64,000 bases of DNA from Methanoregula sp. PtaU1.Bin051 (lineage in GTDB: Archaea > Halobacteriota > Methanomicrobia > Methanomicrobiales > Methanospirillaceae): positions 1 to 64,000 of the forward strand of contig MVRE01000011.1 of assembly GCA_002067895.1 (NCBI GenBank), given 5' to 3'. Positions 18,905-49,151 of the stretch are shown piece by piece (the stretch's first letter is position 1; each line of letters starts with the position of its first letter). Below the pieces are notes generated by a model, which searched no databases, was not told the DNA's origin, and worked only from the letters and a program-made list of their open reading frames with translations. Position numbers and translations under genes: made by a program.

Positions 18905-18975
18905 CGCTGTAATCCTCCTTCATAGTACGATCCTGAACGATGATAAACCATTGTGCTTTTCTCAAAAGTCCCTCC

Positions 18976-19011
18976 AACGCATCAGAACCTTCTTGAGGGT
19001 TCTGATGCGTT
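18976..19011. repeat. Perfect 14-bp inverted repeat at the outer left edge of the transposon
   Basis: AACGCATCAGAACC (18976-18989) and GGTTCTGATGCGTT (18998-19011) are exact reverse complements separated by TTCTTGAG. The right arm is the start of the left transposon end. The left arm looks like the outermost 14 bp of a second, otherwise deleted, transposon end sharing the same 8-bp target sequence. Confidence 0.85.
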
Positions 19012-19056
19012 CTCGGTTGATTGATGCGTACTGACTTCGCTGATGCGTGGCGGTTG
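18998..19056 (+). repeat. Left terminal inverted repeat of transposon
   Basis: It aligns without gaps to the reverse complement of 22187-22245. Identical blocks are at repeat positions 1-11 (GGTTCTGATGC), 17-20 (CGGT), 22-24 (GAT), 44-49 (TGATGC) and 51-57 (TGGCGGT). The inner TGATGC repeats the outer one, suggesting two transposase-binding sites per end. The 8-bp TTCTTGAG target copy abuts it at 18990-18997. Confidence 0.85.
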
Positions 19057-19109
19057 ATCGCGGGGTGTATCCGAGTGAGTTATGAACACCCGCGCATAAT
19101 AATTCATGG

Positions 19110-19232
19110 ATGCCGAACTCTTCCAAGAACAAGAAATCAAAGAAACCTGTACCAGTCAAGGATCAGGACAAGATCGTTGACCGGATAATCAAGCGGGACA
19201 GAAAAGCACTGGAAGAGTTAAGCAATCTCTGA
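19110..19232 (+). CDS. Small basic protein (40 residues) of the transposon
   Basis: This short frame begins MPNSSKKNKKSKKPVPVKDQ and continues with a charged helix (KIVDRIIKRDRKALEEL). The composition is protein-like, with a lysine-rich head and an amphipathic helix, and the 3' end overlaps the convergent transposase gene by 15 bp. No ribosome binding site was seen, and no family was recognised. It may be an accessory DNA-binding factor or not be expressed. Confidence 0.4.
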   Translation: MPNSSKNKKSKKPVPVKDQDKIVDRIIKRDRKALEELSNL

Positions 19233-20435
19233 CGTGCTTGCAGGACTCTTTTTTGAATCCGCTGCCAGTCCGATCATTGTCATCCAACGGTTGCCGGTCA
19301 GGTCAATTGGGATATTTGCCATCTGTGCCGGTGTCATGCCGCCGATACCCTGATGCGGTCTGATGTAGTTGTAATACGTCTGCATCCCGGTGGCAAACTC
19401 TTCAGCGTCGCAGGAACTATCAAAACTCCGGACAACCTTTGTCCTCTCCCTGAATGTCCCGTTCAACCGTTCGAGGATGTTGTTGTTCGGCTTAGTTTCA
19501 AAGTCTTTCAGCCGGATGTGCGGGTTCTGGATTCGTCCGAGTCCGAAAAATTCTGCCCTGATTGCACTGCTGTAAGCCTGAAGGCCATCGGTCACAATGG
19601 CGTCCGGTGCTTTATTGGCGGCGTTCTTGGCCTTGCGGAGCGGCTGGCGTGCATCTTCTTTGTACCGGGTTTCCGTCACTTCGCAAGCAAGAAGATACCG
19701 GGTCTTTGCATCCATGACGTTCCAAATCCACTCATAGTATTTTTTCTGCCCTTCCTTTTTGATGAAGATCGTCGTCTCGTCAGAGTGCCAGATGTTGCCG
19801 ACATCCGCTTTGTATTTCTCTGCATACCTTCCGAGAAGCGAGAGGTACTTCTTGATCCACCGGAGAATTGTTGTCTGGTTGACTGATACTTCCTCGAATT
19901 GTTTCAAGTGATCCGCGATCTTCCTCTGCGAGACTCCCTTGAAGTAAAGATCAAGAGTCTGCGTCACGGTCTTGGGGCTGTGCTTCATCCGGCAGAAGCC
20001 CTTATCGACAACAAATGTATGGTTGCAGTCCTGACAGGAATATCTCTGGTTCGTGCCGTAGACGGTCTTCCGGCTTCCCCACTTCCTGATATTCTCGGAC
20101 TTGCAGACCGGACAGGTAATCTTCGGTTCGACTTCTTCCAGGTACGCCGGTGCACTGTGTTCCTCTACGTCACCGGCTATCTTTATTGAGAGTTGTACAG
20201 CGTGGATGTGTTTGCACGGTAACTGCCTCTTCTGAAAATCGGGACAGGTGCAGAACCAGTCGTGCATGTGGGTGGGATCTCGGCCTTTGACGAACTTCCG
20301 GGTAACCTGATATGTCCCGTTCCCGCTCTGTGACTTGACATTCCATTCATTCTTGCTGACCTGGCAGACGGTATCCGGCTGCGAGAGTATCGCCAGCCCC
20401 CTTAACTCCCGTGGATCGTTGAGTTGTCGGATCAT
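19218..20435 (-). CDS. SWIM/zinc-ribbon DDE transposase, IS6-like
   Basis: With the ATG at 20435 the protein has 405 residues. An upstream GTG-GTG would add four, but GGTGAT lies 4 nt before this ATG as a ribosome binding site. Domains in order: SWIM zinc finger (CTCPDFQKRQLPCKH, about 63-77), zinc ribbon (CPVC and CQDC, about 108-137), HTH-like segment (VSQRKIADHL), and DDE catalytic core. Likely catalytic residues are Asp in WHSDET (219), Asp in VTDGLQAY (283) and Glu in NNILERLNGT (322). The core resembles IS6/IS240 transposases, while the N-terminal zinc modules make it larger than the roughly 230-residue norm. All catalytic residues are present, so it may be active. Confidence 0.9.
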   Translation of the reverse strand: MIRQLNDPRELRGLAILSQPDTVCQVSKNEWNVKSQSGNGTYQVTRKFVKGRDPTHMHDWFCTCPDFQKRQLPCKHIHAVQLSIKIAGDVEEHSAPAYLEEVEPKITCPVCKSENIRKWGSRKTVYGTNQRYSCQDCNHTFVVDKGFCRMKHSPKTVTQTLDLYFKGVSQRKIADHLKQFEEVSVNQTTILRWIKKYLSLLGRYAEKYKADVGNIWHSDETTIFIKKEGQKKYYEWIWNVMDAKTRYLLACEVTETRYKEDARQPLRKAKNAANKAPDAIVTDGLQAYSSAIRAEFFGLGRIQNPHIRLKDFETKPNNNILERLNGTFRERTKVVRSFDSSCDAEEFATGMQTYYNYIRPHQGIGGMTPAQMANIPIDLTGNRWMTMIGLAADSKKSPASTSEIA

Positions 20436-20459
20436 TATTATCACCACATTTCCTTTTAC

Positions 20460-20589
20460 AAATCGTACGATTTATTCTATGAATCTCTATCATATTAAAC
20501 ATATCGGTTATTAATCGTACGAACAATTAGAGGAACATTTATTATATCGTACGCAACATAGTTGTAATTATAGTAGTGGTGCGTACGCA
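20460..20589. promoter_or_regulatory. Divergent promoters with four CGTACG palindromes
   Basis: CGTACG-centred sites are at 20460-20473 (AAATCGTACGATTT), 20515-20522 (TCGTACGA), 20547-20553 (TCGTACG) and 20580-20589 (TGCGTACGCA). TTTATTATAT (20538-20547, plus) is a TATA box for the AbrB-like gene; TTTAATATG (20499-20491, minus) is one for the transposase. Each promoter is bracketed by two sites, near TATA/BRE and near the start of transcription. This is what an autorepressor of both directions would need. The AbrB-like or winged-helix protein is the obvious candidate binder. Confidence 0.7.
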
Positions 20590-20828
20590 TGACCGAGACT
20601 GAAGAAGCGGTATCCGACGTGATACCGGAACTTGATGGGGATACTATCACTAAACAGGTGAAGCTCAGCTATGATGGGCGACAACTCATGATCCGTATCC
20701 CCCGCGAGATTGCGGAGTTTTACGACCTTAAAAAAGGCGACCGGATCGATATGACAGTGAACATTCCGGCGCAGATGGAATCAACTAGGGAGATCCCTCT
20801 GATGGTGAAAATCGCGGAGGCGGAATAG
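20589..20828 (+). CDS. AbrB/SpoVT-type DNA-binding protein
   Basis: This is a 79-residue protein. Residues about 22-58 match the swapped-hairpin AbrB fold: KQVKLSYDGRQLMIRIPREIAEFYDLKKGDRIDMTV (cited in part as RQLMIRIPREIAEFYDLKKGD). Such proteins dimerise and bind palindromic DNA, often near their own promoters or as antitoxins. The last palindrome of the divergent promoter overlaps its start codon. It overlaps the next gene by 1 bp (TAGTG), so it leads a three-gene coupled operon. No toxin domain was recognised next to it. Confidence 0.82.
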   Translation: MTETEEAVSDVIPELDGDTITKQVKLSYDGRQLMIRIPREIAEFYDLKKGDRIDMTVNIPAQMESTREIPLMVKIAEAE

Positions 20829-21025
20829 TGACGGAATTGAATGTCTACGAACAGGCCATTCTCCGGTTACTGAAAGTCGCCCGCCGCGCTTTAACTACTT
20901 CACAGATTGCCGATAAAACCGGAATCGCGTGGGAGACTGCCAAGAAATATCTCGATAAACTTCACCGGAAACGGTTCATCTCCAAAGAGGATACGGGGAA
21001 CCGGATCTACTGGAAGATAAAATGA
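20828..21025 (+). CDS. Winged-helix DNA-binding protein
   Basis: This is a 65-residue single-domain protein starting at GTG, which overlaps the preceding TAG by one base. The sequence YEQAILRLLKVARRALTTSQ then IADKTGIAWETAKKYLDKLH is a canonical winged helix, with the wing RFISKEDTGNRIYWKI. It overlaps the next ATG by 4 bp. It is probably a transcription regulator of the transposon, working with or beside the AbrB-like protein. Confidence 0.8.
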   Translation: MTELNVYEQAILRLLKVARRALTTSQIADKTGIAWETAKKYLDKLHRKRFISKEDTGNRIYWKIK

Positions 21026-21264
21026 AATCAGGAAAATCTTCACGGAAACAAAGTCAATGCATTTACGACGGTGACGATTCCTGTGCCTTCAGTGGGTTTG
21101 GTGTCGGGCATCACGGAGAAGCGTGTTATTGTGAACACTTCAATTCAGCGGTCTATTGTCCGTACTTCAATAAGATGAGAGATAATCGAATCGCCGCCAA
21201 ACGCGAGAAAAACAAGCAGAAGCACTCTCTTCTCTCTCGATTACGACGAAAGATATTCGGATAA
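21022..21264 (+). CDS. Small cysteine-rich protein of the transposon
   Basis: This is an 80-residue protein of unknown family. The N-terminal half holds cysteines in CIYDGDDSCAF, EACYCEHF and AVYCPYF, with a nearby histidine, suggesting a compact zinc-binding module. The C-terminal third is strongly basic (RIAAKREKNKQKHSLLSRLRRK). The design suggests a DNA- or RNA-binding factor. It is translationally coupled to the winged-helix gene by an ATGA overlap. Confidence 0.6.
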   Translation: MKSGKSSRKQSQCIYDGDDSCAFSGFGVGHHGEACYCEHFNSAVYCPYFNKMRDNRIAAKREKNKQKHSLLSRLRRKIFG

Positions 21265-21345
21265 TTGTTACAGGTCATTTCACATTCAAATAACTATTTT
21301 TAAGACCCCTCAAATTGATGTCATTTTATCAGAAAGGGTGTTACT

Positions 21346-21786
21346 TTGGTGAAAAAACGTAGTGGCCTCGTTGAATCTTCCTTTGAAGTCGGTCAGAATA
21401 TTTGGAATAACAACGATCAAAAGGACGACCGGGAACGGAAGTTGACAGCAGCTCAAATAACGAAAATTAAGGTAGCTGCTGGTAAATGTGAGATCCCAAG
21501 TTGCCCAAAAGGGGCATATAAAGTCCATCACATCAATGGGGATAGAACAGATGATTCGTATGAGAATTTAATTGTCCTTTGTAGTAATCATCACGATGAA
21601 GCTGAAGGGAAATACATAGCGGGAAATGATCGCCGGGTAGATACATCAATACCTCGTTTGAAAAAACTCGTTAAAGATCGCAAAAAAGGGATCAAAGATG
21701 ATATTATGAATGCATTATCTCGAAAAGCCACTAAACCAACACAGAGAAAAAAACCGTTTGCATCGTGGGATGACGTTCGATATTAA
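21346..21786 (+). CDS. HNH endonuclease domain protein
   Basis: This protein of about 146 residues starts at TTG 21346 or GTG 21349, with AAGGG about 10 nt upstream. It has a classical HNH motif: CEIPSC for structural zinc, then KVHHINGDRTDDSYENLIVL (catalytic HH and Asn) and CSNHHDEAEG. The C-terminus is basic. HNH proteins are nicking or cleaving nucleases found in mobile elements and restriction systems. Its place inside the transposon suggests a mobility or defence role, but the target is unknown. By eye the region is more AT-rich than the core genes. Confidence 0.85.
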   Translation: MVKKRSGLVESSFEVGQNIWNNNDQKDDRERKLTAAQITKIKVAAGKCEIPSCPKGAYKVHHINGDRTDDSYENLIVLCSNHHDEAEGKYIAGNDRRVDTSIPRLKKLVKDRKKGIKDDIMNALSRKATKPTQRKKPFASWDDVRY

Positions 21787-21792
21787 AAATAG

Positions 21793-22059
21793 TTAGAAGT
21801 TTACCCCTTTCCAGTCTTTAGGCTCGCCCGTGCGATAAACCAGCCAAGTTTTTCCACTGGGGCTTTTTACAACACGCGCCTTTTCTCCAATAGCCCCGAT
21901 ACCTTTCGGGTAGGGTGTGCGAATTTCCTTTGCAAATTTCATCGCAGTTTGTTGTTTTCTGAAAGTTGTTCCGATGAGGAAATATCTCTCTCCATCGAAT
22001 CTTCGATAAAGGGGGATATGATCCTTCGTGTAATATTTCTGGGATTGCGCCGATTGCAT
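21793..22059 (-). CDS. Hypothetical protein of the transposon right end
   Basis: The likely start is the ATG at 22059, since GGAGG lies 8 nt upstream; this gives 88 residues beginning MQSAQSQKYYTKDHIPLYRR. An earlier ATG at 22113 has no binding site. The protein mixes aromatic and basic residues (RYFLIGTTFRKQQTAMKFAK, ARVVKSPSGKTWLVYRTGEP), reminiscent of small beta-alpha nucleic-acid-binding folds. No family was recognised. It converges on the HNH gene with a 6-bp gap and is the last gene before the right inverted repeat. Confidence 0.55.
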   Translation of the reverse strand: MQSAQSQKYYTKDHIPLYRRFDGERYFLIGTTFRKQQTAMKFAKEIRTPYPKGIGAIGEKARVVKSPSGKTWLVYRTGEPKDWKGVNF

Positions 22060-22186
22060 TTTCATTTCCTCCATTTTGTTCCAGGATCGAGACCTACGGC
22101 CTGTCATCTCCATTACTCACAAAACCTTTCAAAACGGCAATTATCGTAACCGCTCTGGATCGCAAAAACGTCAGCAGATTCACCGC

Positions 22187-22245
22187 CCACCGCCATGCAT
22201 CACCAACCGTTTGCGCGGTTGATCCACCGTAGATGCATCAGAACC
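22187..22245 (-). repeat. Right terminal inverted repeat of transposon
   Basis: The reverse complement aligns gaplessly with 18998-19056, with matching outer GGTTCTGATGC and inner TGATGC-TGGCGGT blocks. The 8-bp target copy TTCTTGAG follows at 22246-22253. The next bases lead into the hsp20 promoter. Confidence 0.85.
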
Positions 22246-22267
22246 TTCTTGAGCAAACCTCAAATAC

Positions 22268-48813: not shown

Positions 48814-49151
48814 AGTATTTCTTTCTTGACTCCGGTGGAGGGCGATTGCGGTCAGTACGGATATGGTGGGGTTCTCCCGTGCCGGTGCGGGGATGGTCTG
48901 CGAGCTTGCGGGACGGGACGAAACGGGCGGCGAGCCGGCCGGCCGGTGGAAGATCCGGCCGGGGGTTCCGGTACGATCGCGTTGCCGGCCGATCTGCTCC
49001 CGTACATAATTCCCTGCCAATCGTTGCCTTACCGGTGCCGTCAAGCGTGCATCATAAAAAAAAGGGGTCGTTGATCTCCGCAGGCAGGCTGCCTGCAGAA
49101 TTATTGTTGCTAAATACGAATTTCCGTACGAGCTCGGTACCGGTACCCGGT
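48814..49151. other. Non-coding gap with terminator-like run
   Basis: I see no supported gene in these 338 bp. On the minus strand a T8 run (49056-49063) lies downstream of the DUF5611 gene. A GCAGGCA-GGC-TGCCTGC hairpin (49080-49096) precedes it, together a plausible terminator. The palindrome-rich GAGCTCGGTACC at 49130-49141 is adjacent to the gene end. Confidence 0.5.

Follow-up and report, generated by a model that had tools for sequence, protein, structure and literature searches.

Four CGTACG palindromes at the divergent promoters of an archaeal IS6/IS240-like transposon: a putative repressor switch that may be exchanged among related elements

We analyzed a 64,000-nucleotide stretch of contig MVRE01000011.1 from Methanoregula sp. 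PtaU1.Bin051 (here called the window), which contains an IS6/IS240-like element with cargo genes (Table 1). The limits of the element follow from its inverted ends and from the 8-bp target duplication on either side. Its tips start with GG and have a G at position 7, which, like the 8-bp duplication, are IS6 traits; two sister elements for which both ends were found (L119 and L121) have the same traits and enclose their regulator gene between 8-bp duplications. A lone 24-bp terminal repeat of the L117/L114-end type (AAGTCCCTCCAACGCATCAGAACC, 18966 to 18989) directly adjoins the left target duplication. An “end−8 bp−end” junction of this kind was also seen at G139:C1:1322442 (L133) and twice, with identical 8 bp, in G134:C154 (L132), which suggests either insertion right at the ends of older elements or tandem arrays with later deletion.

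The leftward transposase combines an additional N-terminal part, with SWIM and zinc ribbon motifs, with an IS240/IS6-type DDE domain (PF13610, 8.8e-15, above the cut-off), whose catalytic residues D223, D287, and E326 (numbered from GTG 20447) were identified by inspection of conserved columns. The NCBIfam IS6 equivalog is the best match among all IS models but, at 116.2 bits, stays below its cut-off of 125, and the element is therefore labeled IS6/IS240-like rather than a member of IS6. It also departs from the IS6 format of a single transposase open reading frame (ORF) in an element of about 0.8 to 0.9 kb, as it carries a regulator operon and cargo. No transposase relatives were found in viral contigs, and the plasmid search returned only distant IS6 transposases. 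This element and sister L034, which have only distantly related transposases, carry HNH cargo genes that look related to each other (HHIN..D..Y.NLIVLC), while the cargo of L015, L016, and L032 is DNA-methyltransferase-like rather than HNH.

The rightward operon comprises three genes, encoding an AbrB/MazE-like protein, a winged-helix (wHTH) protein that is probably cotranscribed with it, and a Cys-rich ORF. The PF04014 (MazE) match of the AbrB-like protein reaches 23.3 bits, just under the curated cut-off of 24.7, and the protein matched no AbrB model in NCBIfam; its AlphaFold model, of low confidence (mean pLDDT of 60), has a hairpin and a short helix. The wHTH protein weakly resembles Sso10a-type archaeal chromatin proteins (2e-6, below the cut-off). 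No toxin family was recognized in the operon by Pfam or NCBIfam, and no resolvase was found in the element by Pfam. AbrB relatives were not found in phages, and AbrB homologs outside the transposon family (L076 to L087) have no CGTACG array beside them (no 3-kb locus has more than one copy).

Table 1. Features of the element and of its divergent promoter region (window coordinates)
Feature	Position	Strand	Remarks
IS6/IS240-like element with cargo	18998..22245		Ends GGTTCTGATGC, inverted, 16/20 identical; 3248 bp
8-bp target duplication, left copy	18990..18997		TTCTTGAG
8-bp target duplication, right copy	22246..22253		TTCTTGAG
Transposase (SWIM + zinc ribbon + DDE)	19218..20435	-	ORF list start GTG 20447; sisters favor ATG 20435
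CGTACG site 1	20464..20469		Center of AAATCGTACGATTT (20460-20473), a 14-bp perfect palindrome; at predicted transposase start site
Putative transposase TATA box	20490..20499	-	TTTAATATGA; placed by eye
CGTACG site 2	20516..20521		Contexts ATCGTACGAA / TCGTACGA; directly upstream of putative transposase BRE/TATA
Putative AbrB operon TATA box	20538..20547	+	TTTATTATAT; placed by eye
CGTACG site 3	20548..20553		Context ATCGTACGCA; between putative TATA box and start site of AbrB operon
CGTACG site 4	20582..20587		Within TGCGTACGCA (20580-20589); leader, touches AbrB start codon
AbrB/MazE-like protein, 79 aa, proposed repressor	20589..20828	+	PF04014, 6e-5; homolog in L019
Winged-helix protein, 65 aa	20828..21025	+	Overlaps AbrB stop codon; homolog adjoins AbrB in L019
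Cys-rich ORF, 80 aa	21022..21264	+	ATGA overlap with wHTH gene; no Pfam/NCBIfam family
HNH endonuclease-like cargo gene	21346..21786	+	PF13392, 4.7e-6; TTG start; own AT-rich upstream region
Cargo ORF without recognized family	21793..22113	-	ORF list, Pfam, NCBIfam

Transposase and operon are separated by a gap of 153 bp (20436 to 20588; 31% G+C), in which four copies of CGTACG, itself a GC-rich word relative to the gap, match exactly at the places given in an earlier note on this DNA (Table 1). None of 5000 dinucleotide-preserving shuffles of the gap reached four copies (mean of 0.12, maximum of 3), and with the 13 copies elsewhere in the 64-kb window taken as the background rate, the Poisson probability of at least four copies in 130 bp is 2e-8. 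When any of the 64 six-base palindromes is allowed, at least four copies of some palindrome occur in 2.5% of shuffles. The chance rate given earlier, one copy per ~4 kb, is too high: 8.55 copies are expected in 64 kb, or roughly one every 7.5 kb. With 17 copies observed against about 8.6 expected, the word is not avoided in the window. Across the 2.31-Mb genome, 8 places have CGTACG pairs spaced by 20 to 50 bp; 3 of these belong to the array and 5 are isolated pairs, and no second array was found. The only other cluster in the window with four copies of one 6-bp palindrome consists of CGGCCG (48936 to 48991).

Consistently with the earlier proposal that two pairs of sites bracket two promoters, the sites fit the TATA boxes that we placed by eye. 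Judged from the sequence, transcription of the transposase from the minus-strand TATA box would begin near 20470, at site 1, and that of the AbrB operon near 20567, with site 3 immediately after the putative TATA box and site 4 in the leader. One site had been described as overlapping the AbrB start codon (ATG at 20589); the core of site 4 ends 2 bp before it, and only the 10-bp extension touches its A. The center-to-center spacings of sites 1 to 4 are 52, 32, and 34 bp. Since 52 bp and 32 bp correspond to a computed 4.95 and 3.05 turns, near whole helical turns, sites 1 to 3 are expected to lie on one face of the helix.

We searched the order, the phylum, and GTDB contigs and obtained 25 full sisters whose upstream gap could be read. 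All 25 have a small divergent first gene, which belongs to one of at least four folds: AbrB/MazE, ribbon-helix-helix (RHH), DUF2080, or zinc ribbon. Most types tested have Pfam support, while the RHH proteins of L053 and L110 and the zinc ribbons of L092, L094, and L109 were assigned by eye. A DUF2080 gene is divergent to the transposase in L032, L033, L046, and L108. DUF2080-type genes were also seen in L037 and L040, upstream of a transposase family with only 27% similarity, so these small regulators can accompany more than one transposase. Within the order searched, a wHTH gene stands beside AbrB only in the window's element and in L019, whose AbrB and wHTH proteins are 31 to 39% identical to those described here.

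The earlier note had made conservation of the sites in sister elements a check on its reading, and here the result was negative: CGTACG is absent from the divergent gap in all 25 sisters, the one copy in L032 being inside the regulator gene, and the word itself thus has no comparative support. We consider this criterion to be the wrong one, because what is conserved is the layout (transposase, gap with repeated words, small divergent DNA-binding gene), whereas words and regulators vary in step. Many sister gaps have dyads or repeats of their own, such as ATAGGTATATATACCTAT (L093), AGTTGGTATATACCAACT (L095), GTAACTACAATGTAGTTAC (L046), TTAGGTACCTAA (L101), and TTTTTGGCTCCAAAAA (L034). In L019, the nearest sister with both AbrB and wHTH, two TTCTTAAGA palindromes lie ~47 bp apart before the transposase, where the window's element has sites 1 and 2.

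In 15 of 26 gaps, 7-mers are repeated more than in dinucleotide shuffles (p<0.05); the other 11 show no significant excess. When the window's element and near-copies are left out, 13 of 22 gaps reach p<0.05 (Fisher 7e-14). Among the controls, 3 of 16 ordinary upstream regions do so, as do 2 of 40 AT-rich segments; set against the ordinary upstream regions by themselves, the gaps differ modestly (p=0.02). Because 11 of 26 gaps are null and 3 of 16 upstream regions also show an excess, these class-wide figures are suggestive but not decisive. The length of perfect palindromes is a weaker measure than repeated words (4 of 24 at p<0.05, Fisher 0.008).

Regulator class switches at least 8 times across a 21-element transposase tree, and a 24-element tree that includes three doubtful long rows gives 10 switches. 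Unrelated regulators are frequent even where two transposases are 75 to 90% identical. The transposases of L015 and L016 are 77% identical and stand beside AbrB and RHH regulators, respectively, and those of L096 and L108 (80% identical) beside RHH and DUF2080. Regulators of the same class are 32% identical in L020 and L034 (transposases, 89%) and 42% in L093 and L109 (transposases, 90%); the operator words are largely different in both pairs, with word sharing between the L093 and L109 gaps slightly above chance (12 of 300 shuffles as high). Where the regulator is shared, the gaps of L015 and L017 have 25 common 8-mers (shuffle maximum, 10) and those of L032 and L033 have 26 (shuffle maximum, 9), with weaker sharing for L015/L018 and L017/L018 (8 and 5 of 300 shuffles as high). 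In an alignment of their gaps, L015, L017, and L018, which share AbrB and have no wHTH, have a TACRTTAT-type word in common. Gaps with different regulators share words no more than expected by chance; L014, L015, and L016, with transposases 75 to 77% identical and different regulators, share only 1 to 3 8-mers. No shared operator word was found between L014 and L019, which have the AbrB-plus-wHTH pair in common at only 31 to 39% identity.

Since transposases that are 89 to 90% identical (L020/L034 and L093/L109) are accompanied by different words, the transposase does not appear to be the reader; the words follow the neighboring regulator, which is therefore the probable reader. We thus favor, with a probability of roughly 70%, a reading in which the four CGTACG sites are operators of the AbrB/MazE-like protein, which would repress both the transposase and itself, possibly in joint action with the wHTH protein. 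AbrB-like dimers at sites 1 and 2 would cover the transposase start site and the stretch directly upstream of its TATA box and BRE, and dimers at sites 3 and 4 would sit just downstream of the operon's TATA box and in its leader. The bound protein could then keep out TFB, TBP, and RNA polymerase, which would hold transposase levels low and make the operon autorepressed. When the element enters a cell that lacks the repressor, both promoters may fire, causing a burst of transposase followed by shut-off. In this reading, regulator gene and operators would make up a cassette that elements of this transposase family swap and evolve anew, giving each a private switch. Comparison with the sisters, in which the layout is kept, gives good support to the earlier suggestion of an operator array over divergent promoters, for which binding and repression are predicted. 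Of the two readers suggested at that time, the AbrB-like protein is favored, because AbrB fills the regulator slot to which wHTH is an addition, and because sisters with operator-like repeats carry a single AbrB, RHH, DUF2080, or zinc ribbon gene and no wHTH.

That same absence bears on two alternatives that we consider unlikely, each to a similar degree. The wHTH protein might itself read CGTACG, and the AbrB-like protein would then be an accessory or a partner resembling an antitoxin. Short palindromes are common targets of wHTH dimers, the wHTH gene and the AbrB stop codon overlap, and L019 has retained the two genes side by side, but L015, L017, and L018 share AbrB and operator words without any wHTH. 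Both proteins could instead be required, as a hetero-complex or through cooperative occupancy, as in antitoxin/toxin corepression. The overlap of the gene pair and the near-helical phasing of the four sites, which permits looping or cooperative binding, fit this idea; the operon, however, has no recognized toxin-like gene, and single-gene regulators seem to be enough in the sisters.

Non-operator roles for CGTACG, as transposase-binding, res-like recombination, or restriction/methylation sites, are very improbable. Some sisters do have methyltransferase-like cargo genes, and Tn3 res sites overlap divergent promoters (PMC7157771), but the element has no resolvase, CGTACG is not avoided in the window, and the words differ between sisters with transposases that are 89 to 90% identical. 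We give even less credence to a functionless chance clustering. Palindromes gather in AT-rich promoter regions, and some 6-bp palindrome occurs four times in a few shuffles (see above), but a GC-rich word in this gap, the shuffle and Poisson results for CGTACG, and the class-wide repeats in the same gap all stand against it.

Extending the AbrB-operator reading to the whole group is tentative, and we put it at slightly under even odds: archaeal IS240/SWIM transposons, a widespread group, may carry exchangeable immunity-like cassettes, in which a single slot divergent to the transposase holds small DNA-binding proteins of four or more unrelated folds and each protein has a separate operator array in the shared gap, so that related co-resident elements would be controlled independently. 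We also looked for heteroimmunity of co-resident elements in every genome looked at with at least two elements; the regulators differ in G000, G139, G167, G245, and G522, which is expected by chance given the many types, and this candidate was set aside. If the proposal is right, it describes a specific switch that can be tested and implies a general rule, in which the transposase stays while repressor and operator swap together, as well as putative roles for tiny archaeal “transposon-associated” families (DUF2080, solo AbrB, RHH, and zinc ribbons) and a natural collection of matched repressor-operator pairs.

Several known systems resemble parts of this arrangement. MazE/AbrB-type autorepressors of toxin-antitoxin operons bind palindromic sites over their own promoter, and the window's AbrB-like protein, which may form a swapped-hairpin dimer, has palindromes over its putative promoter as well; here, in contrast, the divergent transposase is proposed to be controlled too, and no toxin partner was recognized. 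Phage immunity regions have divergent promoters, operator arrays, and repressor-operator pairs swapped as modules between relatives. The present case resembles them in layout and in the proposed module swapping, but is a transposon with single small regulators of several unrelated folds. The IS6 family (IS26/IS240), including long zinc-finger clades and archaeal members, has been reviewed (PMC7986276, PMC6807381); a 2021 review listed just one member that carries a passenger gene and described the control of transposase expression as little known (PMC7986276), and another found no experimental data on archaeal members (PMC6807381). The element shares the DDE_Tnp_IS240 domain, tips, and target duplication with IS6, but differs in its transposase of 405 to 409 aa with SWIM and zinc ribbon, its divergent regulator operon, and its cargo. 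DUF2080 proteins (PF09853; NCBIfam “DUF2080 family transposase-associated protein”) are likewise small and divergent to the transposase in sisters, but are one of several interchangeable slot genes, the window's element carrying AbrB and wHTH there. In the Tn3 family, element-encoded DNA-binding proteins, including AbrB/MazE antitoxins, lie beside divergent transposition promoters, and the regulators vary among members (PMC7157771). The toxin-antitoxin modules of Tn3 and TnpR control at res thus share element-encoded DNA-binding proteins at divergent promoters with the present element, which differs in having an archaeal promoter, neither toxin nor resolvase, and a regulator that appears to be a stand-alone repressor. 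While the transposase association of DUF2080 (from its NCBIfam name) and the varied antitoxins beside Tn3 divergent promoters (PMC7157771) were already known, what appears to be new here, relative to the open papers covered with limited search terms, is the pattern of one slot, many regulators, and private operators in an archaeal family.
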